From contig NZ_JACKZY010000002.1 in the NCBI RefSeq assembly GCF_020833685.1, forward strand, positions 62,001 through 126,000: 64,000 bases of DNA, in the 5' to 3' direction. The DNA comes from Nitratireductor sp. B36 (GTDB lineage Bacteria; Pseudomonadota; Alphaproteobacteria; Rhizobiales; Rhizobiaceae). The notes below the pieces were generated by a model, which saw only the letters and a list, made by a program, of their open reading frames with translations, was not told the origin of the DNA and did no database searches. Below are positions 31,050-44,368 of the stretch, piece after piece; positions within the stretch are counted from its first letter, which is position 1, and each line of letters starts with the position of its first letter. The translations under genes and the position numbers were made by a program.

Positions 31050-31970
31050 ATGCATTGCAAGATATTGGGGGTACCGGTCCAGGACGGCGCGGGGCGCATG
31101 GGCTGCGAGATGGGCCCGAGCGCATTGCGCACGGCAGGAATGGCTGCTGCCCTTCGCGAGCTTGGCCATCAGGTCACCGATCTGGGAACGGTGGTCCCAA
31201 AGCCACAAGAAATACGCGCACACGGCAACCCGGCCCTCAAGGCTCTGCCGGAGATCGTCGCGTGGACGGCTGCGATCAGCGAAGCAGCCTATGAAGCATC
31301 TGCCGATGGCATGCCGATCTTTCTCGGCGGCGATCACAGCATGGCGGCAGGGACGCTCTCCGGTGTCGCGCGCCGCGCGGAAGAGTCCGGCAGGCCACTT
31401 TTCGTGCTGTGGCTCGACGCGCATCCCGATTTCCACACACTTGAAACCACCACAAGCGGCAATCTGCACGGTGTTCCGCTGGCCTATGCGAGCGGGCAGC
31501 AGGGCTTTGAAGGCTATTTTCCGCGGCTTCACACGGCGATTGACCCGAGCCGCATCTGCGCGATGGGACTGCGCAGCGTGGACCCTGCCGAGCGTGCGGC
31601 CCTCCATCAGGCTGGCGTGACTGTCCATGACATGCGGGCGATCGACGAACATGGCCTTGCGCCGCTGCTGCGCAGCTTCCTGGAGCGGGTGGCGGCCGAT
31701 GGCGGGTGGCTTCACGTCAGCCTCGATGTCGATTTTCTCGATCCGGCCATCGCGCCGGCCGTGGGCACCACCGTGCCTGGCGGCGCCACGTTTCGAGAGG
31801 CGCATCTGGCGATGGAGATGCTGCATGACAGCGGCCTTGTCACCAGCCTCGATCTCGTGGAGCTCAATCCCTTTCTCGATGAGCGCGGCCGCACGGCCAC
31901 CCTGCTCGTCGACCTCACGGCCAGTCTGCTTGGCCGGCGCATCATGGACCGGCCCACAAGGAGCCATTGA
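31050..31970 (+). CDS. rocF: Arginase
   Basis: A 306-residue ureohydrolase that splits arginine into ornithine and urea. The manganese-binding motifs are present in order: GGDHSMAAGT, WLDAHPDFHT (DAHxD type) and SLDVDFLDP, plus the C-terminal ELNPFLDERG. ATG 31050 follows an AGGGCGG ribosome site and matches the usual start (MHCKILGVPVQDGAG). It is four-base coupled to ornithine cyclodeaminase and divergent from the Lrp gene. Together they take arginine to proline. Confidence 0.94.
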   Translation: MHCKILGVPVQDGAGRMGCEMGPSALRTAGMAAALRELGHQVTDLGTVVPKPQEIRAHGNPALKALPEIVAWTAAISEAAYEASADGMPIFLGGDHSMAAGTLSGVARRAEESGRPLFVLWLDAHPDFHTLETTTSGNLHGVPLAYASGQQGFEGYFPRLHTAIDPSRICAMGLRSVDPAERAALHQAGVTVHDMRAIDEHGLAPLLRSFLERVAADGGWLHVSLDVDFLDPAIAPAVGTTVPGGATFREAHLAMEMLHDSGLVTSLDLVELNPFLDERGRTATLLVDLTASLLGRRIMDRPTRSH

Positions 31971-31972
31971 AA

Positions 31973-33058
31973 ATGAAATACACACCCGCAAGCGACAGTT
32001 TGAACCTCGTTCCTTTCGTCAGTGTGCACCACATGATGGAACTGGTTCTGGAGATCGGGGTCGAGCGCTTCCTGGCCGAATTGACCGATTACATCGAAGA
32101 GGATTTCCGGCGTTGGGAGGATTTCGACAAGACACCGCGTGTGGCCTCCCACAGCCGTGAGGGGGTTATCGAGCTGATGCCGACGAGCGACGGCAAACAT
32201 TATGGCTTCAAATATGTGAACGGTCATCCCAAGAACACGCGTGAGGGCCGGCAGACGGTGACGGCGTTCGGCGTTTATGCCGATGTGGGCAATGGCTATC
32301 CGTTGTTGATTACCGAGATGACCATCCTGACCGCGTTACGCACCGCGGCCACCTCCGCGCTGGCGGCGAAATATCTGGCGCCGGAAGGGTCGCGTACCAT
32401 GGCGCTGATCGGCAATGGCGCGCAGTCCGAGTTCCAGGCGATGGCCTTCAGGGCCGCCCTCGGTGTCGACCGCCTTCGGCTCTACGACATCGATGGTGAT
32501 GCAACAGAAAAATGTCTGCGCAATCTGCAAGGGTTGGGTTTCGAAATGGTCCCGTGCAGCACACCCGAAGAGGCGGTCGAAGGGGCTGACATCATCACCA
32601 CGGCCACGGCCGACAAGCAGTATGCCACCATTCTGACCGACAACATGGTTGGCGCCGGCGTGCACATCAACGCCGTGGGCGGCGACTGCCCCGGCAAGAC
32701 CGAGCTGCATCGCGACATTCTCACCCGTTCCGACATCTTCGTGGAGTATCCGCCGCAGACCCGCATCGAGGGTGAAATCCAGCAGCTTGCGGAGGATCAC
32801 CCGGTGGAAGAACTGTGGCGGGTGATCGCCGGTAAGGTGAAAGGGCGTCGCGAGCCGCGCCAGATCACGCTCTTTGATTCCGTCGGTTTCGCGACCGAGG
32901 ATTTTTCCGCACTGCGCTATGTCTATGACCGCGTGCGCGAGACCAATCACTTCATCGAGCTCGACCTTCTGGCCGATCCCGATGAGCCGCGCGATCTTTT
33001 CGGCATGCTTCTGCGCTTCCCCGGTTCGTCGCTTCTGGCGGCGAAGAAGGCTGGCTGA
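31973..33058 (+). CDS. ocd: Ornithine cyclodeaminase
   Basis: A 361-residue enzyme of the ornithine cyclodeaminase/mu-crystallin family that turns ornithine into proline and ammonia using bound NAD. The N-terminal half has MEDFDKTPRVASHS-type residues (here WEDFDKTPRVASHS). The Rossmann part has LIGNGAQSEFQA, and HINAVGGDCPGKTEL lies in the active site. AAGGAG (31957-31962) sits 10 bases ahead of ATG 31973, which is preferred to TTG 31967. It follows arginase in the same operon. Its stop codon directly abuts the stop of the convergent nadE gene. Confidence 0.94.
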   Translation: MKYTPASDSLNLVPFVSVHHMMELVLEIGVERFLAELTDYIEEDFRRWEDFDKTPRVASHSREGVIELMPTSDGKHYGFKYVNGHPKNTREGRQTVTAFGVYADVGNGYPLLITEMTILTALRTAATSALAAKYLAPEGSRTMALIGNGAQSEFQAMAFRAALGVDRLRLYDIDGDATEKCLRNLQGLGFEMVPCSTPEEAVEGADIITTATADKQYATILTDNMVGAGVHINAVGGDCPGKTELHRDILTRSDIFVEYPPQTRIEGEIQQLAEDHPVEELWRVIAGKVKGRREPRQITLFDSVGFATEDFSALRYVYDRVRETNHFIELDLLADPDEPRDLFGMLLRFPGSSLLAAKKAG

Positions 33059-34042
33059 TCAGGGTGTCGCCACATCTTCCACCGTCTGCGGGGGCAGGTG
33101 CAGATAGTGCGCCACCTTGCGTTTTGAGGCGATGTCGCGCCACACAAGGCCCACCTGCCGTTCGCTGAGACCCGTGGCGCAGGCGACCTTCTTGGCCGGA
33201 ACGTCGTGGTCGAGGCCATAAAGGCACAGGTCCATCTCGCGATAGGGCAGGGCGAAATAGAACTCTTCCTGGGATTGGGCGAGTGAATAAGTGTCGGTTG
33301 TCGGCATGCGCCGGCGGATCTCGGCAGGCACGCCCAGATGTTTTGCGAGCTGGTAGACCTGTGACTTGTAAAGATGGGCGATGGGCTTCACATCGGCGGC
33401 GCCATCGCCATTTTTCACGAAGAAACCCTGGTCGTATTCCAGCCGGTTCGGGGTGCCGATTACCGCATAGTTCAGCCGGTCGGCATGATAGTATTCCAGC
33501 TGCTTGCGGGTTCGCTGCTTCATGTTGGTGGCAGCGACAATGCCGAGATATACTTCGGGTGGAAGCCGGTGTTTTTCGACCGTGCCGTCGGGCCTCCGCA
33601 CAACAAGATATGAAATATTGTAGGCCTTGGTGGTGAGCGCATTGGCAATGGCGATCTTCATCGACCAGCCCGGCCCGAACTCCGGCACCACTTGGCGGAT
33701 GAAGGCGTTGCGCCGTTCATAGCAGCCCATGGCTTCCAGCGTTGGGCCGATATCTTCAACGGCGCTTTGCAGCCTGAAAGTGCTGGCCACTTCCTGTCCC
33801 AACCGGAGGCTTTCCGGATCCGAGTCATATTCCGGCATGAACAGGCAAAAGACGCGTTCCGGCCCCAACGCCCGGGCGGCAAGGGCTGCGCAGACGCTGG
33901 AATCGATGCCGCCCGACAGGCCGAGCACTAAACCGCGTTTGCGCAGGTTCGTTCGGAGCTGTGTACGCAAAGCCGTGATGATGCGGTCGGTTTCGGCAAC
34001 GACGTCGATTTTCAGAGTGTCTGTGGAGAAGCAGATGTTCAT
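33059..34042 (-). CDS. nadE: Ammonia-type NAD+ synthetase-like adenylating enzyme
   Basis: A 327-residue N-type ATP pyrophosphatase. The PP-loop GLSGGIDSS is near residue 42. GTPNRLEYDQGFFVKNGDGAADVKPIAHLYKSQV region residues follow, as in NadE. It has no glutaminase domain, so it uses free ammonia or ammonia from a partner. It is the last gene of a five-gene operon and overlaps the AMP ligase by four bases (ATGA). In that setting it may amidate or adenylate a pathway intermediate instead of, or besides, deamido-NAD. Fold assignment is firm. The physiological role is open. Confidence 0.8.
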   Translation of the reverse strand: MNICFSTDTLKIDVVAETDRIITALRTQLRTNLRKRGLVLGLSGGIDSSVCAALAARALGPERVFCLFMPEYDSDPESLRLGQEVASTFRLQSAVEDIGPTLEAMGCYERRNAFIRQVVPEFGPGWSMKIAIANALTTKAYNISYLVVRRPDGTVEKHRLPPEVYLGIVAATNMKQRTRKQLEYYHADRLNYAVIGTPNRLEYDQGFFVKNGDGAADVKPIAHLYKSQVYQLAKHLGVPAEIRRRMPTTDTYSLAQSQEEFYFALPYREMDLCLYGLDHDVPAKKVACATGLSERQVGLVWRDIASKRKVAHYLHLPPQTVEDVATP

Positions 34043-35580
34043 GTGATTCTCATGGCCTCCATGGCGGCAAGGCGGCGGCTGATCTTTCCATTCGCCGTCT
34101 TTGGCAACTCCGCCTGAAAAATGAATGATTTCGGCACCATCACGTCCGGTAATCGCTGCTTGCAGAAGCGGGCAAGCTCCTGCTTGGTAAAATCGGGGGA
34201 AGCAGGCACCACGAGGGCGTCCAGCCGGTGGCCGGAGACCGGGTCGGGCGTGGTGAAGGCGATGGCCTCGCGAACGCCGGGGCAGGCCGAAAGCACGGCA
34301 TCCACCTGCCTCGGCGATACTTTCTCCCCACGGATCTTAACCACTTCGTCTTTGCGGCCGATGAAATAGAGGAACCCTTCCGGGTCGCTTTTGAACAGAT
34401 CGCCCGTGTAAAGAAACTTGCCTTTGCCGTCCGGGCCAGCGCGCAGCGCGCGGGCGGTTGCGTTTGGATCGTTCCAATAGCCTTGCATGACATGAGGCCC
34501 GCGGATGATCAGTTCGCCGGGAATGTTTGGCGCGGCCTCATTTCCGTTTTCATCCACGACAAGGGCCTCTGTGCGCGGGAGAGCCTTGCCAACGGATGTG
34601 GGACGTCGGTCGAGCTGCTCCGGGTCGAGAAACGTTGCTCTCGCGCATTCCGTGAGCCCGTACATGGAGTAAAGGCGCGCAGCGGGGAAGAGAGCGCGGA
34701 GTGCTTCGATATGGGCGGGCGGCAGATGCGCCGCAGCATTGGTCATGTAGCGCAGTGCCGGCAGACGCTCGGGACCCACTCCCTTGAGCACGGCAAGCAT
34801 AGCCGCCATGGTGGGCACCAGAGGAAAACCGGTGACACCCTCGACACACGCCTTTTCGAGGATTGCATGAGGATAGGCGAAGCTCTTTTCCAGAACGAGC
34901 GTCGCGCCACTGCGTATCGCGACGAGGAGCTGATAGAGCCCGTAGGTGAAAGACAGTGGCAGCGCCGATAGCACCACATCGTGATCGCCGTTGCCCAGGT
35001 AGCCGGCGATGATTTCTGATGCCGCGTCGACATTGCGGTGGCTCATCATGACGCCTTTGGGCATGCCGGATGAGCCGGAGGTGTAGATCAGAAAGGCGAG
35101 GTCGTGGTCATTCTCCTGACCGACGGGTAATGGCGCTTCCAATTCGAGGCAAGTCTCGAACGCAACGGCGTCGTGCGGAACCAAAGCGCCCGACCGCGCT
35201 ATGATTGAGAGGGGTTTGTGGCCCGCTGCCACAGTCGCCTCATCACAGTACTTGACGTGCCTGGCTTCGCATACCAGGACCTTGGGCAGGCAGTGACTTA
35301 AAACGTGGGCGAGGCCCTGCGCCCTCACTCCGGGATTAACAGGAACAACAACTGCGCCTGCCTTTAAACCCGCGAAGATGGCGACGGCCATCTCGGAGAG
35401 ATTGTCCATGAAAAGGACGATCCGGTCGCCTGGTTCTACCGCATGAAGGCTTAAGGCACCCGCCATGCGCTCGGACAGATGATCGAGATCGGCGAAACTT
35501 AACCGCTCAGACCCTGCTACAAGAGCCGTGGCAGAAGGGGCAATGGCTGCCCGGGCCCGCAGGAAAGCCTCGACGCGCAT
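34039..35580 (-). CDS. AMP-dependent acyl ligase (acyl-CoA/acyl-ACP synthetase)
   Basis: A 513-residue ANL-superfamily adenylating enzyme. Motifs include LIYTSGSSGMPKGVMMSHRN (phosphate loop), the YSMYGLTECARATF core, YTGDLFKSDPEGFLYFIGRKDEVVKIRGEKVSP and the C-terminal catalytic Lys in KTANGKISRR. ATG 35580 begins the usual N-terminal helix (RVEAFLRARA). It lies 16 bases after a free-standing acyl carrier protein and overlaps nadE, so the likely task is to activate a carboxylic acid and load it on that carrier. The acid cannot be predicted reliably by eye. Confidence 0.87.
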   Translation of the reverse strand: MRVEAFLRARAAIAPSATALVAGSERLSFADLDHLSERMAGALSLHAVEPGDRIVLFMDNLSEMAVAIFAGLKAGAVVVPVNPGVRAQGLAHVLSHCLPKVLVCEARHVKYCDEATVAAGHKPLSIIARSGALVPHDAVAFETCLELEAPLPVGQENDHDLAFLIYTSGSSGMPKGVMMSHRNVDAASEIIAGYLGNGDHDVVLSALPLSFTYGLYQLLVAIRSGATLVLEKSFAYPHAILEKACVEGVTGFPLVPTMAAMLAVLKGVGPERLPALRYMTNAAAHLPPAHIEALRALFPAARLYSMYGLTECARATFLDPEQLDRRPTSVGKALPRTEALVVDENGNEAAPNIPGELIIRGPHVMQGYWNDPNATARALRAGPDGKGKFLYTGDLFKSDPEGFLYFIGRKDEVVKIRGEKVSPRQVDAVLSACPGVREAIAFTTPDPVSGHRLDALVVPASPDFTKQELARFCKQRLPDVMVPKSFIFQAELPKTANGKISRRLAAMEAMRIT

Positions 35581-35596
35581 TGGAGTGCCTCCCGAC

Positions 35597-35869
35597 CTAG
35601 GTACTCGCGGCGGCTTTCGCCTTGCTCTTCCCGGCGACAAATGCGGTCAGGCGGGCAATCGTGTCAAAGTTCTCGGGCACGATTTCCGGATCCGCCACCT
35701 CAACCGAGAAATGCTCTTCCAGAAAAGACACCATCTCCAGAATGCCGGTGGAATCAACAATATCGTTCTCGATGAGAGACGCATCGTCGCCGGGAATCTC
35801 GCTCTCATCGCCAAACAGAAAGTTTTCGACGATGAATGCGCGAATATCGGCGTTGATCTGCTGTGGCAT
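35597..35869 (-). CDS. Free-standing acyl carrier protein
   Basis: A 90-residue acidic helical protein of the ACP/PCP type. The phosphopantetheine attachment serine is Ser40 in DIVDSTGILE, where fatty-acid ACPs read DSL. Acidic helices on both sides (FGDESEIPGDD, FLEEHFSVEV) fit the fold. The tail is Ala/Lys-rich. ATG 35869 (MPQQINADIRAF) is chosen over longer readings that lack family similarity. It sits between the asparagine-synthase-like gene and the AMP ligase with gaps of 16-17 bases. It is therefore a dedicated carrier for this operon and not the fatty-acid ACP. Confidence 0.85.
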   Translation of the reverse strand: MPQQINADIRAFIVENFLFGDESEIPGDDASLIENDIVDSTGILEMVSFLEEHFSVEVADPEIVPENFDTIARLTAFVAGKSKAKAAAST

Positions 35870-35886
35870 GGTGCTTCCTTTCACGG

Positions 35887-37833
35887 TCAGACAGGAACCG
35901 CCAGGGTCTCGTCCGTTCTGCGAAACTGCCTGGCGAAATGCTGGGACCAAAGCTGCGTTGAGAGGATGCCGACAAAAGCGGCGTTGTCACGAAAACCGGT
36001 GAAATTACTTAGCCGGCTTTTTTTAAACAATCTGGTCGATTTTTCAACGTCGAAGACGCCGGTTTCTTCCAGGGCTGTTTTTTCGAATGCGGCTTTGACG
36101 TAATCGGGTGCCTTCGCCGTGAAGGCATTGGCTTCCGGCGCGCGGTAGGGCTGCTTCGGCCGCTCGGCGATCCGTTCGGGTATCGTGCCGCGCATGGCCT
36201 CCCGGAGAAGATGTTTTTCCCGAAGTCCCCGGAGCTTGATGTCGGCCGGAACGCGTGCAGCGTGTTCCACCAGCCGGTGGTCGAGAAAGGGGAAACGCGT
36301 CTCGATGCCATTCGCCATGGCCATGCGATCGCCCTGGCTGGAAAGAATATAGCCAGGCAGAAGAAAACGGGTCTCCAGATACTGTGCCTGGTGCAATGGG
36401 TGCCATTCGCGAAACGCCTCTGGCAGCGTGGATGCAAGCTCATCGGCGGCGCTGTAGTCGCCCAGCTTTTTCTTTATGGCTTCCGAGAAAAAAAGCTTCG
36501 TGCCCGCGGTGCTCCGCAAGCGTGGCCGGTGGGAATAGAGCGGATCATCAAGGCAATCCGTGGTGATGCCGAAATAGGCCGCCAGATAGTCCGGCGTCTG
36601 GCGTTTCAGATTGGCGAGATAAGGGTAGATGCGGCGAAACAGATGCGGGCGCAGCTGCGAGCCGGACTGCCGCGCACAAAAACGGCGGATGCGCGCTTCC
36701 TTGAAAATGTCATATCCGGCAAAGATCTCGTCGGCACCTTCGCCGGAAAGGACCGCTTTGATCCCCTTTGATCGCACAAGAGAGGAGAGCCGGTAGAGGG
36801 GGGCGGGGCCGGTTCTCAGGATCGGCAGTTCGGCGTGCCGGATGACTTGCGGAAAGACCGAGGCGATCTCATCAGTGTTGCAGTCCACCGTATGGTGAGC
36901 GGTTCCCAGGACATCCGCCATCTCGTTTTGAAAACCGCTTTCATCGAAAGCGGGGTCGGAAAACGTTACGGCGAAGCTTGATAGACCGGCCGGTGCCATG
37001 CGTTTGGCGAGGGCAGCTATGAGGGATGAATCAAGTCCCCCTGAAAGATAGGTCCCGACTTGCACGTCGGCGCGCAGACGTATGCGTGTGGCGTCTTCCA
37101 ACAGCGCGCGTGTTTCTTCTCTCATCCGATCTTCGGAACGATCGTGATGGATATCGGAGAAATCCAGGTCCCAGTAGCGCTGAATCCGCGCTGCACCGTT
37201 ATCCACGATCATCCGGTGCGCGGGGGGCAGTTCGCAAATTCCCTCGAATGCCGTGCGTGGCGGAATGGGGGCCCAAAGCGTAAAAATCTGGTCGAGTGCC
37301 AGAGGGTCGAGGTGCGCTTCGATACCGGGCACGGCCAAGAGTGCCTTGATTTCAGAGGCGAAGTAGAAGCACCCGCGATGCCATGTGTAAAACAGGGGGC
37401 GCACACCGAAGCGATCGCGTGCTAGAAAAAGCCGCTCGTTCTGGGTGTCGTGGATTGCAAAAGCGAAATCGCCGTTCAGCTTTTCTACGCAAGCTGGCCC
37501 GAGGTCGCTGTAAAGGTGGAGAACCACCTCGGTGTCGCTTTTGGTGCGAAAATGGTGCCCGCGACTTTCCAGATCCTGTCGCAGTTCGAGGTAGTTGAAG
37601 ATTTCGCCATTGTAGGTGATGTGCAGTCGTCCGTCGGCGCTCGCCATGGGCTGCTGACCATCGGCCAGACCGATGATCGCGAGACGGCAATGGGCCATGC
37701 CGGCACGGTCAGCAATGTGAATGCCAGCTTCATCGGGGCCGCGGTGAGCAATGGCAGCAGACATGGCCGTCAGGAGCATCCTGGCTTCCCGAGGAGGAAG
37801 GCCCGCGCCGCAATATCCTGCGATTCCGCACAT
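35887..37833 (-). CDS. asnB: Asparagine synthase-like glutamine amidotransferase
   Basis: A 648-residue class II glutamine amidotransferase. Cys2 in MCGIAGYCG is the glutaminase nucleophile. RGPDEAGIH and YNGEIFNYLELR follow. The synthetase domain has the PP-loop YLSGGLDSS and GEGADEIFAGY. ATG 37833 is fixed by the need for Cys at position 2. Length is usual for bacterial AsnB. The operon partners are a GNAT, an ACP, an AMP ligase and a NadE-like enzyme. It may therefore amidate or cyclise a carrier-bound intermediate rather than make asparagine. Plain asparagine synthesis remains possible. Confidence 0.88.
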   Translation of the reverse strand: MCGIAGYCGAGLPPREARMLLTAMSAAIAHRGPDEAGIHIADRAGMAHCRLAIIGLADGQQPMASADGRLHITYNGEIFNYLELRQDLESRGHHFRTKSDTEVVLHLYSDLGPACVEKLNGDFAFAIHDTQNERLFLARDRFGVRPLFYTWHRGCFYFASEIKALLAVPGIEAHLDPLALDQIFTLWAPIPPRTAFEGICELPPAHRMIVDNGAARIQRYWDLDFSDIHHDRSEDRMREETRALLEDATRIRLRADVQVGTYLSGGLDSSLIAALAKRMAPAGLSSFAVTFSDPAFDESGFQNEMADVLGTAHHTVDCNTDEIASVFPQVIRHAELPILRTGPAPLYRLSSLVRSKGIKAVLSGEGADEIFAGYDIFKEARIRRFCARQSGSQLRPHLFRRIYPYLANLKRQTPDYLAAYFGITTDCLDDPLYSHRPRLRSTAGTKLFFSEAIKKKLGDYSAADELASTLPEAFREWHPLHQAQYLETRFLLPGYILSSQGDRMAMANGIETRFPFLDHRLVEHAARVPADIKLRGLREKHLLREAMRGTIPERIAERPKQPYRAPEANAFTAKAPDYVKAAFEKTALEETGVFDVEKSTRLFKKSRLSNFTGFRDNAAFVGILSTQLWSQHFARQFRRTDETLAVPV

Positions 37834-37888
37834 CGATGTCTTTACCCCCGAGGACTCAACTGCCCAGTCTCCAATTCCTGGATGTGCT

Positions 37889-38998
37889 TCAGTCGAAGCG
37901 ATCCCCGAGGAGCCGGGTCCAGGATTCTCCCGCAAAGCCGTTGAGAAAAGCTTGTCCAGTGACAAACGGCTCGAGAAGCGTCCTGTCCTTTGCATGAACA
38001 ATACTGGAGGAAGCATGAACAAACGCAAAGCGGCGGCCGAGCATGGCGTTTACGAGTGCAGGTTGACCGCGACCGCGCAGAGCGACCAGACCGCGTTTGG
38101 TGGCGTCGTCCAGCAGCGTGTCGAGCACGGAGCCTTCGTGTCCCGGCAATGACAGGACCTGAATGACACGACCGATGCCGCCTTTGTTTCCGTAATACAC
38201 AAAGAACCCGACGGTTTTGCCGCCGCGGGAGAGCACCTTGCGACGCACCATCGTGCCGTAATTGGCTTTGCGTTGTGCTTCAACGACCATCCGTTCCAGC
38301 TCGCTTTGCGACCATTCGGGATGAAGGGCGAAAGTGGTAGCGAATGTCCGGATCAGCGACACAGTCTCCGCGGTGTCGGTGTCTTCGCTTACCAGAGCAG
38401 TTTGCGCAAATTCGCCATCGGCCACATGCGTCCATTGTGGTGGAGAGCCTCTGCGGCGCAACAGGGCGTCAAAAGGGCGGGCCAATGGACGCGTAAGGGC
38501 GGCCGGAGCGAAAGCGTTCGCCGCTATGGCGGCCATGAAGCCGGCCGGGCGAAGAATGCGCAGCCATTCCAAGCTATATTCGGTCAGGATCGTTCCGCGC
38601 AGCCGGCGCCACATCGCGGTCGAGACATCATTGGCGGTTTCCGTGAGAGAAAGGTCCTGTGGGCCCGACTGGAAGGCCCGAAGGAGGCGTGCGCCGGCAT
38701 AGGGGTCGTCTTCGTGTCGGTCGACCATGAAGCTTCCGCCTATAGCGCTTCTGAGTGTCTTTCCCCGATAGGTGAACCGCATGGGAAGCACGCCCATGAA
38801 GCCGTTGACCTTTCCATCCTCACGGAGATGGACCAATGAATGGATTCCGTCGGCCCGGCATGGGGGATCGAGAAACAGTTCTCGAAGATAGTCGCGCATG
38901 CCCTGTGGAGCGGGGTCACGCCTCTTGCGCAATATGCGCTGAAGCATCTCAGACACCGCAGGAATGTCGTCCTGTTCCAATGGGCGAATATCACTCAT
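37889..38998 (-). CDS. GNAT-like N-acyltransferase
   Basis: A 369-residue protein whose N-terminal 110 residues look like a GNAT fold (IRPLEQDDIPAVSEMLQRIL, HLREDGKVNGFMGVLPMRF). A second half of about 200 residues has no motif that I recognise, though VGFFVYYGNKGGIGRVIQVL could be a second GNAT-like strand pair. It may therefore be a double-GNAT protein. It is the first gene of the five-gene operon with the amidotransferase, carrier and ligase, so it may transfer the carrier-bound acyl group to an amine. Start ATG 38998 opens the fold directly. Specific function unknown. Confidence 0.65.
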   Translation of the reverse strand: MSDIRPLEQDDIPAVSEMLQRILRKRRDPAPQGMRDYLRELFLDPPCRADGIHSLVHLREDGKVNGFMGVLPMRFTYRGKTLRSAIGGSFMVDRHEDDPYAGARLLRAFQSGPQDLSLTETANDVSTAMWRRLRGTILTEYSLEWLRILRPAGFMAAIAANAFAPAALTRPLARPFDALLRRRGSPPQWTHVADGEFAQTALVSEDTDTAETVSLIRTFATTFALHPEWSQSELERMVVEAQRKANYGTMVRRKVLSRGGKTVGFFVYYGNKGGIGRVIQVLSLPGHEGSVLDTLLDDATKRGLVALRGRGQPALVNAMLGRRFAFVHASSSIVHAKDRTLLEPFVTGQAFLNGFAGESWTRLLGDRFD

Positions 38999-39187
38999 GG
39001 AAAAAACACGACAATTCGCGCCTCGGTTGAACATTGTGTACTCGGGACACAGTCTGTGACCTAAAGTTGTTTACGAAGTCTTTTGCCTCAAAAAGTTTTG
39101 TGCAAGGCGGAACACCGACCGTGTATCATCACAAGCAAGGCAGCCAGAAGACTGCAAACGGGAACACGAACAACAACACCGGGCTTA

Positions 39188-40081
39188 ATGAATCTTCGTC
39201 ATATAGAGGTTTTTCACGCCATCCGACTTGCCGGCTCCATTAATGCGGCAGCAGAGCGCCTCAACGTGTCGCAGCCGGCATTGAGCCGCACACTAAAACA
39301 CGCAGAATCTCTCCTTGGCTTCAAATTGTTCGATCGGGTGAAGCAGCGCCTTGTGCCGACCCGTGAGGCGGAGCTGCTCTTCTCGGAAGCCGTGGATGTG
39401 CACGGTGCTCTGGAACGGTTTCGCACGCTCGCGCGCAACCTGGGCCGCAATCCGGACGATGTTCTGCGCGTTGGTTTTCTTCCCAGTCTGGGCGTGGGGC
39501 TTGCTCCGAGGGTCGTTTCGCATCTTCCCAAGCATTGGGAGGGGTTCAAGGTCGAGCTCTTCACCCATCATTATGATGTCTTGGTCAGACGCCTGCGCGC
39601 GCTCGATCTCGACCTTGCCGTGGCTTTCAATATCATGGAGACGCCAGGCATCAATTCCATCCCGGTGGGCACGATGAGCCTCACCTATCTTGAGACTGAC
39701 GATCCTGCAGTTCCCGCAGCGGCGACACCCGTCTCATTGGGGGAAATCGACATGCAGACCTTTGTGGGGCTGGAGAAGGAATCGCCTGTCGGCACCTTTC
39801 TAAAGTCTGCATTCGATGCGGAAGGTGTTCCCTACGAACCGCGCATATCTGTCCATACCTATTCCGTAGCTGCAGCTTGTGTGAGTGAAGGCGTCGGCTG
39901 TGCCATTGTGGACGAGTTCTCCGCGCGTTTCACGAGAGGTGTGCGGCTGCGGCCGCTCAAGCCGGACCTGAAATTCACGATTACCGCCCTGACGTCGGAA
40001 AATCGTGCTGTGTCCAATGCTGAGGAAATGTTCATCAAGATCCTGAAACTGGCCTGTCAGGAACTTCATCGGGAGACCTGA
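39188..40081 (+). CDS. LysR-family transcriptional regulator
   Basis: A 297-residue regulator. The N-terminal helix-turn-helix (residues 2-60, FHAIRLAGSINAAAERLNVSQPALSRTLKHAE) is followed by the linker and a substrate-binding effector domain. ATG 39188 gives the standard LysR start (MNLRHIEVFHAI). It is divergent from the GNAT-asnB operon and convergent with the D-aminoacylase gene 14 bases past its stop. It could control either unit. The gap 38999-39187 holds only a weak dyad, CACAG/CTGTG at 39048-39058. Confidence 0.9.
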   Translation: MNLRHIEVFHAIRLAGSINAAAERLNVSQPALSRTLKHAESLLGFKLFDRVKQRLVPTREAELLFSEAVDVHGALERFRTLARNLGRNPDDVLRVGFLPSLGVGLAPRVVSHLPKHWEGFKVELFTHHYDVLVRRLRALDLDLAVAFNIMETPGINSIPVGTMSLTYLETDDPAVPAAATPVSLGEIDMQTFVGLEKESPVGTFLKSAFDAEGVPYEPRISVHTYSVAAACVSEGVGCAIVDEFSARFTRGVRLRPLKPDLKFTITALTSENRAVSNAEEMFIKILKLACQELHRET

Positions 40082-40095
40082 ACAGGTGAGGCGGC

Positions 40096-41544
40096 TCAGG
40101 TCTCTCCGCGCGCCACGAAGTGACCGCCGCGAGCGCCGGTCACTTCACCATTGGCAAGCACCGCCACTCCGTTGACAAAGACATGCTCTATACCGGCTGA
40201 AGCGCGGTCAGGCGTGTCATAATCTGCCAGATCGAGGACGGTGTCGGCATTGAAGGCGACGAGATCGGCGTAAAACCCCTCCTGCAGCCTCCCACGACGG
40301 GCGAAGCCAAAAATCTGGGCGGGCAGAGACGTCATTTTGCGAATCGCTTCTTCAAGCGGCAACACGCCATCCTCGCGTACATATCGGCCAAGAACACGCG
40401 GAAATGTCCCCCAGAGGCGCGGGTGAGCTTGCGGGCCGGGAATGCCGTCAGAGCCGATCATTGTGCGCGGGTGCTGCATGATGCGGTTGATATCTTCAGG
40501 CGACATCTGGAAATAGATGCCGCGCGCAGGGGCGAGCCTACGGGCAGCCTCCTCCTGATCGCAGCCCATCTTCTCGGCGACTTTGGAGAGCTCCATCCCA
40601 TTGCATTCGGGATGGCTCCCTGAATCGATAACCAAAATGCGTTCTGCATGGCGGGTCAACTCGGGCAGAAGCACCGTGGAACTGGCTTCGTAAGGATAGA
40701 CATCCATCGCGATATCTTGCTGTTGCAGTGCCTTGTCGATCATTGCCAGTGTCTTGACTGACCGGCCATAATTCTGGCGACCGATGCATTTGTGATGTGA
40801 AATGACGACCGGAACGCCGGCGGCTTGGCCAATGGCAAGGGTTTCTCCGACGGCCTCCTCGACCCCGTCGCGCTCGTCCCGCATATGCGTGACATAAAGC
40901 GCTCCTGGGAACGCCGCGAGGGTTCGGGAGAGGGCTACCACCTCCTCGGTGGGCGCGTGCCGTGCAACGGGATAGGCAAGGCCCGTGCTCAAACCCAGAA
41001 CGCCCGCCTCCAGCGCCTCTTCCAGAAGTACACGCATGATGGCGATCTGGCCTTCTGAGGCGGGTTTTCCGGTATCTTCGAGCGTCATGGCGCGAAGCGT
41101 GCCATGACCGGCAAGAGCGGCAACGTTGACTGCGACATTGGCTGCGTCGACCGCACTGCGATAAGCGGCGAAGGAACCAAAACGGTAGTCTTCCGCTGTG
41201 CCGAGAAGGCCAAGCGGCGGCACCAGTTCGGCAGGCTTTTCATAGGGCGCGAGGCTGATGCCGCAGTTGCCGACGATCACACTGGTCACGCCTTGTGTGA
41301 TCTTGGGTTCCATCGCGCTGTCGTTCAGCACTGCAAGATCGTCATGCGTGTGAACGTCGATAAACCCGGGGGCAAGGCTGAGACCGTCAAGGTCAATGGT
41401 TTGGCTGCCACTCCAGCCGGAAACGTCACCGACCGCGGCGATGCGGCCATTGCAGAGTGCCACACCGCCGCGGGTCGGTGGCCCCCCCAGGCCATCGAAC
41501 AGCAAGGCGTTTTTCAAAAGCGTGTCGCATGTGGTTTGCGTCAT
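40096..41544 (-). CDS. N-acyl-D-amino-acid deacylase (D-aminoacylase)
   Basis: A 482-residue zinc amidohydrolase. The metal motif is FIDVHTHDDLAVL. TSVIVGNCGISLAP holds the family Cys ligand, and VVISHHKCIGRQNYG and MIGSDGIPG complete the set. These identify the D-aminoacylase family, which removes acyl groups from N-acyl-D-amino acids. It is the last gene of a minus-strand operon with an amidase and a Liv-type importer. This suggests import and hydrolysis of amides, N-acyl amino acids or peptidoglycan- and peptide-derived D-amino acids. It begins 27 bases after the amidase. Confidence 0.88.
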   Translation of the reverse strand: MTQTTCDTLLKNALLFDGLGGPPTRGGVALCNGRIAAVGDVSGWSGSQTIDLDGLSLAPGFIDVHTHDDLAVLNDSAMEPKITQGVTSVIVGNCGISLAPYEKPAELVPPLGLLGTAEDYRFGSFAAYRSAVDAANVAVNVAALAGHGTLRAMTLEDTGKPASEGQIAIMRVLLEEALEAGVLGLSTGLAYPVARHAPTEEVVALSRTLAAFPGALYVTHMRDERDGVEEAVGETLAIGQAAGVPVVISHHKCIGRQNYGRSVKTLAMIDKALQQQDIAMDVYPYEASSTVLLPELTRHAERILVIDSGSHPECNGMELSKVAEKMGCDQEEAARRLAPARGIYFQMSPEDINRIMQHPRTMIGSDGIPGPQAHPRLWGTFPRVLGRYVREDGVLPLEEAIRKMTSLPAQIFGFARRGRLQEGFYADLVAFNADTVLDLADYDTPDRASAGIEHVFVNGVAVLANGEVTGARGGHFVARGET

Positions 41545-41571
41545 CGGGAACTCCTTGCCGATTGTTGTTGC

Positions 41572-42972
41572 TTAGGCAGCCGAGAGGTCGGGCTGCCGGT
41601 TTGTGGTCGAGAGGCTCTTTTCGAGAGCTGTACCCATTGCGAGCAATTGTTCCTCGCCAAAGGCGCGTCCCATGAGCTGCACGGAAAGGGGCAGACCATC
41701 TGTGGTGAAACCCGCTGGAAGGGCGAGACCACAAGCTCCCACGTAGTTCGCGGGCCGGCCATAGGCTGCGAGTGGTACCGTGGCCTCGTCCACCTCCGCT
41801 AACGGGATCGCGGGGAAGGGGAGCGACGGCGTGAGCAGAGCGTCGAACGGCTTCATGAATTCGGCATAGACCGCTTTCATGCGCCGGTGATCAGCAAGGG
41901 TCTCGATGTAATCATTGGCGCTGATGGCTGCGCCGGCAAGTACACGCTGCCGGACATAGGGCCCGATGGGGACGCTTTCGTCATGGATGTACTCACGGTG
42001 AACCGCGTAGGATTCCGCCGCGATGATGCGCCCGTTGCGTTCGGTCATATCGTTGAAGGAAAAGGGCAGATCGGCGGGGACGAGCTTGACGCCTAGCCCT
42101 GCCAGCGCTTCCTTTGCACGGTCATAGGCGGCCTGGCTTTCGGCATCGAGCGCAAGCGGAAAATCCTCCTCGCGCATGACGGCAACCTGCATGCCCTGGG
42201 CGCGCATTTCCTTCCATGCGCCGGAGATGAGCGGTGGTGCGAGGCGGGTGGCCGGGTCCTCAGATTCGGTTCCGGAAAGTGCTTCAAACAATAGAGCCGC
42301 ATCCTCGACGGTGCGCGTCATCGGACCGATGGAATCGAGCGTGGCTGAGAGCGGGAAACACCCCTTGAGGCTGATGCGCCCAAAGGTCGGTTTCAGGCCA
42401 ACAAGCCCGTTGAGGGCGGCGGGGATGCGCACGGACCCGCCCGTATCGCTGCCAAGGGCGGCGGGCGCGAGACCGGCCGCCACCGCCACACCGGAGCCGC
42501 TGGAGGAACCGCCGGGAATACGGTGTGTCTTCATGTCCCACGGGTTGCGTGGCGTGCCGCAAAGCGGATTGGTACCCCAGCCGCCGAAGGCGAACTCCAC
42601 CATGGCTGTGCGCCCGATGGGGATCATGCCGGCGGCGAGCAGCCTGCGCATGACGATGGCGTCGGCGGTGGAGCGTCGGTCCTTCCAGGCCTTGCTGCCC
42701 ACCGTGCAGATTTCATCCTGCCAGTCGATGAGGTCTTTCACGGCGATGGGGAGCCCGTGAAGAGGGCCGTAGACCACACCAGACGCGCGCAGCCTGTCCA
42801 GCCCCTCCGCCATGGATAGCGCCCGATCGGCATCCACATGCACGAAGGCGCCGAGGGCCTTGTCGTGCCGGGCTATGCGCTCCAGAAAATGCCGGGTGAT
42901 CGTGGTGGAGGTGAGCGAGCCTTCGCTCAACGCTTTTGAAAGGTCTGCAAGGGACGCGAATGACGGATCCAT
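41572..42972 (-). CDS. Amidase-signature family amidase
   Basis: A 466-residue hydrolase with the Ser-cisSer-Lys triad region: Lys in LPIAVKDLID, the Gly/Ser-rich GGSSSGSGVAVAAG and the nucleophile Ser in GSDTGGSVRIPA. The start ATG 42972 (MDPSFASLADLSKAL) fits the family. Longer readings run through the repeat upstream. It cleaves an amide to acid plus ammonia or amine. It lies between the binding-protein gene and the D-aminoacylase, so its substrate is likely what the Liv-type importer brings in. The exact amide is unknown. Confidence 0.88.
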   Translation of the reverse strand: MDPSFASLADLSKALSEGSLTSTTITRHFLERIARHDKALGAFVHVDADRALSMAEGLDRLRASGVVYGPLHGLPIAVKDLIDWQDEICTVGSKAWKDRRSTADAIVMRRLLAAGMIPIGRTAMVEFAFGGWGTNPLCGTPRNPWDMKTHRIPGGSSSGSGVAVAAGLAPAALGSDTGGSVRIPAALNGLVGLKPTFGRISLKGCFPLSATLDSIGPMTRTVEDAALLFEALSGTESEDPATRLAPPLISGAWKEMRAQGMQVAVMREEDFPLALDAESQAAYDRAKEALAGLGVKLVPADLPFSFNDMTERNGRIIAAESYAVHREYIHDESVPIGPYVRQRVLAGAAISANDYIETLADHRRMKAVYAEFMKPFDALLTPSLPFPAIPLAEVDEATVPLAAYGRPANYVGACGLALPAGFTTDGLPLSVQLMGRAFGEEQLLAMGTALEKSLSTTNRQPDLSAA

Positions 42973-43042
42973 GATGTTCTTTTCTTGGAAAATGCGCCCG
43001 ACCTCGAGGGAGACGTTTCGAAAGCCGGGCGCCAAGTGGCTA

Positions 43043-43091
43043 GAGCATCGGTGTGAAAACTGGAATCCGGTTTTCCGGCATTCCGATGCTC
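43043..43091. repeat. Rhizobial-type double-stem palindrome
   Basis: An outer stem, GAGCATCGG (43043-43051) with CCGATGCTC (43083-43091), encloses an inner stem, 43055-43063 with 43067-43075, with loop AAT and one G-U pair. This GAGCATC...GATGCTC unit with a GAAAA/TTTTC inner arm is a form repeated in rhizobial genomes. It lies between the binding-protein gene and the amidase within one operon. Confidence 0.75.
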
Positions 43092-43141
43092 CATAGTTAA
43101 TCCAGATCGTCCTTTGTGTGTCCGGACGGACGCAGGGCGAT

Positions 43142-44368
43142 CTAGTCGCGTTGATCCCAACCAGGGATCGGGTAGATGGGCTCGGCAACGGCGACTTCTT
43201 TAGGCCACACGGTCACGAGCCCCTTGCCCGGCTGCAACTGCACCACCGGGAAAGGCATTTTGAGCTGCTTGCCGGTTTCGTCGATCGCGTAGGGACCGGC
43301 GAGAACCGTCAGATTGTCGCTGAGTTCCATGGCCGCCTTCTTGAGGTCGGCAGCGTTCAGGCTTTCCGCGTTCTCGATGATTTCTCCAGCGATGACGCCG
43401 GCGCCATAAGCGAGAACGGTCTGGAAGTCGGGCTCATAGGAAACGTCCGGGAAGAGCTTTTCGTATGCGGCGAGGAAACCCTCACGATCAAGCCCTGCAT
43501 CCACTTCCCAGTTGATGGTGGGGTGGAAGTTGGTGTGGCTGTAGATGTACTGCGCATCGTCGCCGATCTCGATGAACTGCGGCGTCGAGGCATAGACCAT
43601 GAACGAGAACGGAAAGTTCACATTCATCTGGCGCATCTGCCGCACCATCGAGATGAGATCGCCCTCATAGCTGGTCGGGAAGAACACGTCTGCTCCGGCG
43701 GCGCGTGCCTTCTGCAGAAGCAGGCTGAAATCCTTCGTGCCCTTCGGATAATCCTCCTTCAGGACCACTTCCATGCCGAGCTTCTCGGCGATGGCTTCGG
43801 CACCGTCGGCAAGGCCGGCGGGAAAGGGCTCATCCACATTCACAATGGCAACCTTCTTGCCGCCCAGCGCTGCGGCGGCCTCAAGGCCGGCCGACGGCAT
43901 GCGCGAAACTGGCATCTGGGTTGCCGAGACGATGTTCTTGAAGCCCTGATTATAGAGTGCATCGGAAGCGGCGGACCAGATGACCATGAACTTGTCGAGC
44001 CGCTCGGTCACGGTGGCGGCGGCAGCCGTCAGGGTGGAGCCGAAAGGCGCCATCAGAAGGTCGACGTCCTCATTGGCGATCAGGTCTTCATAAACGCGGG
44101 CAACCATCTGTTTGTCGGAGCGATCGTCGCGCTTCACGAGTTCGATGAGGCGCTTCTCGCCATTCACTTCCAGGCCGCCATTGGCGTTGACTTCATCGAC
44201 CCAGATTTCCACGCCACGCACGCCCGATTGCGATGCGAGGGCGAAGTTTCCGGACGACGAAACCGTCATGCCGATCTTGATCTTTTCCTGCGCCTGGCCG
44301 GCCACCGGCAGTGCAAGGCCTGCAAGCAGCGTGCCGGCCATGAAGGTACGTTTGGTTATGGTCCACAT
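43142..44368 (-). CDS. Liv-type ABC solute-binding protein
   Basis: A 408-residue periplasmic protein of the branched-chain amino acid/amide class. The signal peptide ends near residue 27 (LLAGLALPVAGQAQE). IKIGMTVSSSGNFALASQSGVRGVEIWVDEVNANGG is the classic opening (positions 44212-44314), and LLMAPFGSTLTAAAATVTERLDK follows. ATG 44368 has AAGGGGAA at a good distance, while another in-frame ATG six bases upstream would sit on that site. It is the fifth gene of the importer operon, and the amidase follows. Amides, such as urea or short amides, or amino acids are the likely ligands. Confidence 0.86.
   Translation of the reverse strand: MWTITKRTFMAGTLLAGLALPVAGQAQEKIKIGMTVSSSGNFALASQSGVRGVEIWVDEVNANGGLEVNGEKRLIELVKRDDRSDKQMVARVYEDLIANEDVDLLMAPFGSTLTAAAATVTERLDKFMVIWSAASDALYNQGFKNIVSATQMPVSRMPSAGLEAAAALGGKKVAIVNVDEPFPAGLADGAEAIAEKLGMEVVLKEDYPKGTKDFSLLLQKARAAGADVFFPTSYEGDLISMVRQMRQMNVNFPFSFMVYASTPQFIEIGDDAQYIYSHTNFHPTINWEVDAGLDREGFLAAYEKLFPDVSYEPDFQTVLAYGAGVIAGEIIENAESLNAADLKKAAMELSDNLTVLAGPYAIDETGKQLKMPFPVVQLQPGKGLVTVWPKEVAVAEPIYPIPGWDQRD

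Follow-up and report, generated by a model that had tools for sequence, protein, structure and literature searches.

A conserved, partly described operon of Nitratireductor sp. B36 is consistent with an acyl carrier protein-dependent acyl-amide pathway

We analysed a 64,000-nucleotide stretch of the Nitratireductor sp. B36 genome (contig NZ_JACKZY010000002.1, positions 62,001 to 126,000; hereafter the window), which carries a five-gene minus-strand operon encoding a GNAT-like protein, an AsnB-like glutamine amidotransferase/synthetase, a stand-alone acyl carrier protein (ACP), an AMP-forming acyl ligase and a NadE-like protein. This gene set reflects a genuine pathway that is conserved and has in part been described, and we put a probability of about 0.5 on its being a dedicated acyl-ACP-dependent acyl-amide pathway, one that is often tied to surface polysaccharide in relatives. 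New in this study are the reading of the GNAT-like protein as a tandem-GNAT acyltransferase, the status of the NadE-like protein as an extra copy, and the partner genes found in relatives. An earlier note on the same DNA, made from the letters alone (the original prediction), had overlooked both the extra copy and the polysaccharide, flippase and methyltransferase partners.

The five open reading frames (ORFs) are tightly packed, and the ORF list of the window bears out exactly the predicted spacing of 55, 17, 16 and -4 bases. The first gene of the operon (37889-38998, 369 amino acids) encodes the putative tandem-GNAT acyltransferase, followed by the AsnB-like gene (35887-37833, 648 amino acids), which starts with ATG and whose product opens with MCGI, Cys2 included. 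The ACP gene (35597-35869, 90 amino acids) has its candidate phosphopantetheine site, Ser40, in a DSTG motif, and the ligase gene (34039-35580, 513 amino acids) shares 4 bases with the gene of the NadE-like protein (33059-34042, 327 amino acids), a predicted amide-forming adenylating enzyme of the NF002048/PRK00876 family. Pfam and NCBIfam scans used the longest ORF for four of the five genes, which gave longer queries for AsnB (35887-38028), the ACP (35597-35950) and the ligase (34039-35640). Curated cut-offs were exceeded by the NadE-like protein (NCBIfam NF002048, 517.1 bits, cut-off 313), by AsnB (NCBIfam TIGR01536, 527.6 bits, cut-off 267.1) and by the ligase (Pfam PF00501, 295.3 bits, cut-off 29.9). 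The ACP stayed under the cut-off of all seven NCBIfam ACP models that it hit and matched no Pfam model at E<=0.001, so that its call is based on the sub-cut-off NCBIfam models together with the DSTG serine; its best NCBIfam model was ACP_for_OlsHI (NF052616), the ornithine-lipid ACP, in which membership was rejected at 51.6 bits against a cut-off of 130.

Conserved synteny and co-occurrence of these genes exceed chance. NF002048, which represents the NadE branch, exceeded its cut-off in 30 of 397 order-wide genomes and in 18 of a second draw of 397 genomes from the phylum, five of them outside the order; the archaeal control genome of Methanosarcina acetivorans also scored over the cut-off. 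A set of 34 loci was assembled from 31 loci of the 30 order genomes, the window's included, and three plasmid-record loci (L036-L038), of which L038, the pSymB locus of Sinorhizobium meliloti, entered via a search with the operon DNA. Beside the NadE-like gene, the ACP and the ligase were present in 34/34 loci, AsnB in 32/34 and a GNAT homologue in 22/34. Among the best 80 of at least 577 relatives (the named loci), 72 have all four core genes (AsnB, ACP, ligase and NadE), as do 5/5 loci from beyond the order. The eight exceptions, which contain no long runs of N, are L077 (ACP and NadE only), L133 (a short contig), L141 (no ligase, retaining GNAT-AsnB-ACP-NadE) and five loci without a nearby AsnB (L135, L145, L146, L147 and L150). 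The gene set is therefore kept far beyond this strain, contradicting non-conservation, and the idea of one conserved biosynthetic set is borne out by the synteny and co-occurrence counts. One named locus, L143 (JAHREI010000008.1), lies on a contig titled Bacillus subtilis SK6B4 and encodes proteins 37-67% identical to those of the window, perhaps from a mislabelled or contaminated assembly. A nine-locus cluster (c6) was dropped, as by position it was taken to be an antisense shadow of nadE.

In a midpoint-rooted NadE tree of 66 rows, for which the named set was thinned to about a third, nine rows with the gene order NadE-AsnB-ligase-ACP formed a group that we call type B (support 100/99), and the rows from beyond the order grouped with Azospirillum (support 99/95), a placement made unsure by the long Azospirillum branch. 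The remaining rows are type A, the type of the window. In Azospirillum ramasamyi all five classes are adjacent in a different order (ACP-ligase-AsnB-NadE-GNAT) and are surrounded by exopolysaccharide (EPS) genes. Type B loci (L041, L052, L063, L065 and L159), several of which have a HemK-like methyltransferase gene, can encode an extra adenylation-type protein of 911-930 amino acids (L041, L052, L063) or 743 amino acids (L065); a scan of those from L041 and L065 showed a C-terminal thioesterase domain in both. In the eight type B loci no member of the GNAT family was detected, and this clade has the look of a sister pathway that lacks the tandem GNAT.

Part of this gene set is already known. 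The asnB-acp-ligase-nadE block occurs on S. meliloti pSymB in the order and direction of the window, with 55-72% protein identity. Because pSymB has a single strong ACP match (51%, 1453164-1453424; the other match, at 28%, contains a stop), this block is, judged by sequence, very probably the SMb20651 operon. A 2009 paper had the S. meliloti ACP as its subject, as its title shows, and its abstract reportedly assigns AsnB, SMb20651, SMb20650 and a NAD synthetase to a single operon and names C12:0 or C18:0 as the acyl groups. A further study states that the genes of the ligase SMb20650 and the ACP SMb20651 are cotranscribed, that expression of SMb20650 leads to acylated SMb20651 in E. coli, and that SMb20650 does not substitute for FadD (PMC7232532). 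A 2017 publication states that the function of SMb20651 needed further investigation (PMC5686131). The description of the operon as undescribed was thus only partly right: the four-gene block had been known from S. meliloti, and its function was still called open in 2017. Our literature search, in which most results were judged without opening them, recognised no product assignment for the gene set. The SMb20651 operon differs from that of the window in that its GNAT homologue (45% identity) lies about 10 kb away, whereas in the window the GNAT gene is the first of the operon.

The GNAT-like protein gave no Pfam or NCBIfam match at E<=0.001. At laxer limits, NMT_C (E 0.0065, 16.6 bits, cut-off 27.9) and Acetyltransf_9 (E 0.033) appeared, both under their cut-offs, and membership in the N-myristoyltransferase (NMT) family was rejected at this NMT_C score; Acetyltransf_9 matches 15 of 55 GNAT homologues, at best with 6e-7. 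A search of the PDB with Foldseek, starting from an AlphaFold model with a mean predicted local distance difference test score (pLDDT) of 94.9, returned 344 matches at E<=0.001, and the 50 listed were all entries of eukaryotic NMT, one of them a ribosome complex including NMT1. The best listed match had an E value of 1.7e-13, with template modelling (TM) scores of 0.42-0.54 and identities of 9-13% among those listed, and the two-domain NMT fold was matched over almost the entire chain. On this predicted structure we read the protein as a tandem-GNAT acyltransferase with two GNAT domains in one chain, which lends support to the predicted acyltransferase role, the fold being one used for fatty acyl transfer. 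Eukaryotic NMT likewise has two GNAT folds per chain and transfers a fatty acyl group to an amine, at only 9-13% identity to the window protein. A bacterial tandem GNAT, NpuN, transfers long fatty acids onto a peptide lysine (PMC13060382), and this lipidating enzyme resembles the window GNAT by description.

Homologues of this GNAT (E<=1e-15) were found in 22 of the 30 NadE genomes versus 19 of the 367 others (Fisher 1.3e-18), in a scan that scored five candidates per genome and may have missed some GNAT genes. At 384 bits or more, a limit chosen post hoc after the scores had been seen, 19 genomes remained, all of them NadE genomes. A close homologue (at least 34% identity) occurs in 67/80 named loci and a complete ORF in 65/80. 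Of the complete ones, 21 have the window's arrangement (upstream, same strand), 41 are convergent genes on the downstream side, 35 of them within 300 bases, and three are divergent genes on the upstream side. Because of this linkage to NadE loci and the co-occurrence across genomes, the GNAT belongs to the gene set. The window genome has a single GNAT of this family. Tandem GNAT paralogues with 25-31% identity to that of the window also occur outside the cluster (L209, 8732-9853 and 10162-11358; L199-L206 and L208), some beside flippases or glycosyltransferases and others without them.

A separate glutamine-dependent NAD synthetase was detected in 30/30 cluster genomes at E<=1e-60, in 28 of them over the model's cut-off. 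The NadE-like protein is, by sequence, not the cell's only NAD synthase, and it would be dispensable for NAD because of this second synthetase in every cluster genome; a main role as NAD synthase was rejected on the same ground, and the annotation 'NAD(+) synthase' carried by its relatives is doubtful. Its model (pLDDT 86.4) matched NAD synthetases and an NMN synthetase among the listed PDB entries, with 16-25% identity, and compared with the Pyrococcus enzyme it has about 53 extra residues between the conserved halves, modelled with additional strands.

Catalytic motifs were counted in homologues from the order-wide and named loci after removal of incomplete ones. The SGGxDS motif of the NadE-like protein is present in 114/114. 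All 103 complete AsnB homologues retain Cys2 (91 as MCG, 12 as variants that keep C2), and 99 of them have SGGxDS[ST]; the DSxG motif of the ACP is found in 99/110 and the P-loop of the ligase in 102/111. The invariant glutaminase Cys2 supports the proposed use of glutamine-derived nitrogen.

A mechanism can be proposed from these assignments. The substrate of the ligase, a carboxylic acid and probably a fatty one, would be adenylated and loaded onto the operon's ACP; the suggestion that an acid is loaded on the ACP has support in the acylation published for the S. meliloti homologues (PMC7232532). In the AcpR/AasR sphingolipid system, too, a ligase loads an ACP dedicated to it; serine palmitoyltransferase performs the next step there, whereas the operon has AsnB, the NadE-like protein and the tandem GNAT (PMC9386255). 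As its fold and linkage suggest, the tandem GNAT would then take the acyl group off the ACP and pass it to an amine, giving an N-acyl amide. AsnB, to judge from its family and intact motifs, would use glutamine nitrogen to convert a carboxylate of the product or of the acceptor to a carboxamide, and the NadE-like enzyme, not needed for NAD, may carry out a second adenylation and amidation on a related carboxylate. Many relatives may further N-methylate the amide by means of a HemK-like methyltransferase and carry the product, or a glycan bearing it, across the membrane with a Wzx-like flippase.

These last two steps draw on genes found near the relatives' clusters. A HemK-like methyltransferase gene is present in 28/80 named loci, and in 18 of the 27 that were measured it shares 4 bases with the GNAT gene; its product scored 142-162 bits against TIGR00536 (hemK_fam, cut-off 115.5) in 6/6 tested, and 0/6 reached the PrmC equivalog cut-off. 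The HemK and PrmC models carry the description N(5)-glutamine methyltransferase, an activity that would suit amide chemistry. A search of 137 loci found 23 with both a second GNAT and a Wzx-like flippase, namely 18 of the named set, L038 and four included for their GNAT paralogues. In S. meliloti 1021, the close GNAT, the methyltransferase, the flippase and the second GNAT lie next to glycan genes, some 10 kb away from the asnB-acp-ligase-nadE block. These companions of the close GNAT were not found in the window genome, which had no dedicated methyltransferase (best matches 32%, a 308-residue frame taken as PrmC, and 29%), no flippase match in a search that had no positive control, and, for the conserved glycosyltransferase, a match of only 31%. 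It seems to hold a minimal five-gene form.

The same partner genes sustain the principal rival, namely that the operon serves to decorate a surface polysaccharide. In this reading AsnB, perhaps with NadE, would make a uronamide or another amidated substituent, the ACP and the ligase would load an acyl group, the tandem GNATs would place it on an amino sugar, and the unit would be exported and polymerised by Wzx/Wzy. We regard this as a possible explanation of distinctly less than even standing. It draws on the EPS-type genes near 35/80 named loci versus 1/20 control stretches (Fisher p 0.0012), on the paired flippase and second GNAT, on the EPS surroundings of the Azospirillum cluster and on the pSymB glycan locus adjoining the close GNAT and the methyltransferase. 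It also draws on genome G295, which has no AsnB beside NadE and carries instead an AsnB 61% identical to that of the window inside an AsnB-Wzx-GNAT2-Wzz-Wzy-deacetylase-glycosyltransferase locus. A precedent exists in the Wbp/Vim linking-sugar pathway of Porphyromonas, which, compared by description and not by sequence, shares with the operon AsnB-type uronamide formation (WbpS) and a putative N-acyltransferase (VimA); unlike the operon, it comes with no ACP named anywhere in the source (PMC7468200). The 80 named loci, however, are nearest relatives whose counts are not independent, and the 20 control stretches came from 20 other cluster-carrying genomes, not from the genomes of the 80. EPS genes were found near 4/8 type B loci (p 0.015) and 3/5 loci from beyond the order, and their presence near 5/23 order-wide type A loci was not a significant enrichment (p 0.19). 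The lack of a second GNAT, the negative flippase search and the weak glycosyltransferase match of the window genome also speak against this explanation.

The acyl-amide pathway that we favour has its own difficulties. The acceptor, the acyl chain and the amidation are all inferred, including the original prediction's amidation of the acyl group itself, and AsnB and the NadE-like protein could act on separate molecules. The likeness to the NMT fold is moderate (TM about 0.5, root mean square deviation 6.3-8.7, 9-13% identity). No GNAT homologue was found in the examined DNA of 12/34 loci, eight being type B and L045, L054 and L055 type A, and the five loci from beyond the order likewise gave no GNAT of this family; the close GNAT is missing from 13/80 named loci, or from 15/80 if a complete ORF is required. 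The Azospirillum GNAT was missed by the family hidden Markov model at E 1e-3 and is distant by hhalign (probability 82, E 1e-5). The core itself is incomplete in L141, which lacks the ligase, and in L077, reduced to ACP-NadE.

An aminolipid pathway, in which the GNAT would acylate ornithine or another amino acid to give a membrane lipid, in connection with the adjacent arginase and ornithine cyclodeaminase, appears improbable. Both genes adjoin the operon in the window and were detected near the cluster in three of the 80 named loci, L071, L074 and L077, all Nitratireductor; beside the glycan locus of S. meliloti lies an ornithine cyclodeaminase homologue (72%), and the ornithine-lipid ACP is the top NCBIfam model of the operon's ACP. 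That score is far under its cut-off, however, the two genes were not detected in the examined DNA of the other 77 named loci, and OlsH and OlsI are GH3-like and alpha/beta-hydrolase proteins, respectively, and not GNATs (PMC12493201).

We likewise consider it quite unlikely that the operon is a variant of the XrtA/PEP-CTERM-associated system or of the N-acetylglutaminylglutamine amide (NAGGN) osmolyte system, which also use AsnB-type enzymes. The XrtA/PEP-CTERM ligase and amidotransferase (TIGR03098, TIGR03108) share enzyme classes with the operon, TIGR03098 is the best NCBIfam match of the ligase, three of the five relatives from beyond the order lie near polysaccharide genes, and TIGR03108 proteins occur in exosortase/EPS loci according to PMC7468200. 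Yet all scores fall under the cut-offs: XrtA/PEP-CTERM membership was rejected at 431 of 592 bits for the ligase (TIGR03098) and 432.2 of 816.9 for AsnB (TIGR03108), and NAGGN membership at 378 bits for AsnB against a TIGR03104 cut-off of 570, the Ngg gene (TIGR03103) lying on another contig (C4, 460303-461937, 931.6 bits). No exosortase (PF09721) matched in the window genome at E<=0.001, in a search that was positive in 1/14 control genomes.

A chance adjacency of housekeeping genes for asparagine synthase, NAD synthase and fatty-acyl ligase, the names used in the annotation of relatives, is scarcely credible given the synteny kept in and beyond the order, the second NadE in 30/30 genomes, the dedicated ACP and GNAT, and an S. 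meliloti ligase that is no replacement for FadD (PMC7232532).

Around the operon, a spacer (38999-39187) separates the GNAT gene from a divergent plus-strand gene for a LysR-type regulator (39188-40081; ORF 39083-40081; Pfam HTH_1 and LysR_substrate), a candidate regulator of the operon, and may contain a regulated promoter. Between 38990 and 39200, 157 of 201 aligned bases are identical to the Nitratireductor aquimarinus relative (L071), with 20 gap columns. The promoter scan (one site versus 1.9 expected) gave no sigma-70-like match in this spacer, and the terminator scan (11 versus 7.1 expected, standard deviation 2.8) was not used. Among the 80 named loci the LysR gene was detected in L071 only and is thus not a conserved part of the system. 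Beyond it lie an amidohydrolase-family gene and an amidase gene (40096-43188). At the other end, the plus-strand ornithine cyclodeaminase gene (31967-33058) ends on the base next to the end of the nadE-like gene at 33059, a convergent arrangement with zero spacer.

Returning to the acyl-amide pathway, a more specific and tentative version, which we hold to be possible at odds well short of even, is that an NMT-like tandem GNAT with a private ACP and a recruited NadE relative beside AsnB makes a substituent or lipid, both lipidated and amidated and in some cases N-methylated, which in many Hyphomicrobiales is exported with a Wzx/Wzy surface polysaccharide. If true, this would amount to a class of acyl-amide surface modification that has so far gone unrecognised. 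Wherever the gene sits in this operon, the name 'NAD(+) synthase' given to its NadE branch appears to mislead. For S. meliloti, a genetically tractable symbiont, the orphan ACP SMb20651 gains a testable gene context that comprises a tandem GNAT, a HemK-like methyltransferase, a flippase and a polysaccharide locus.

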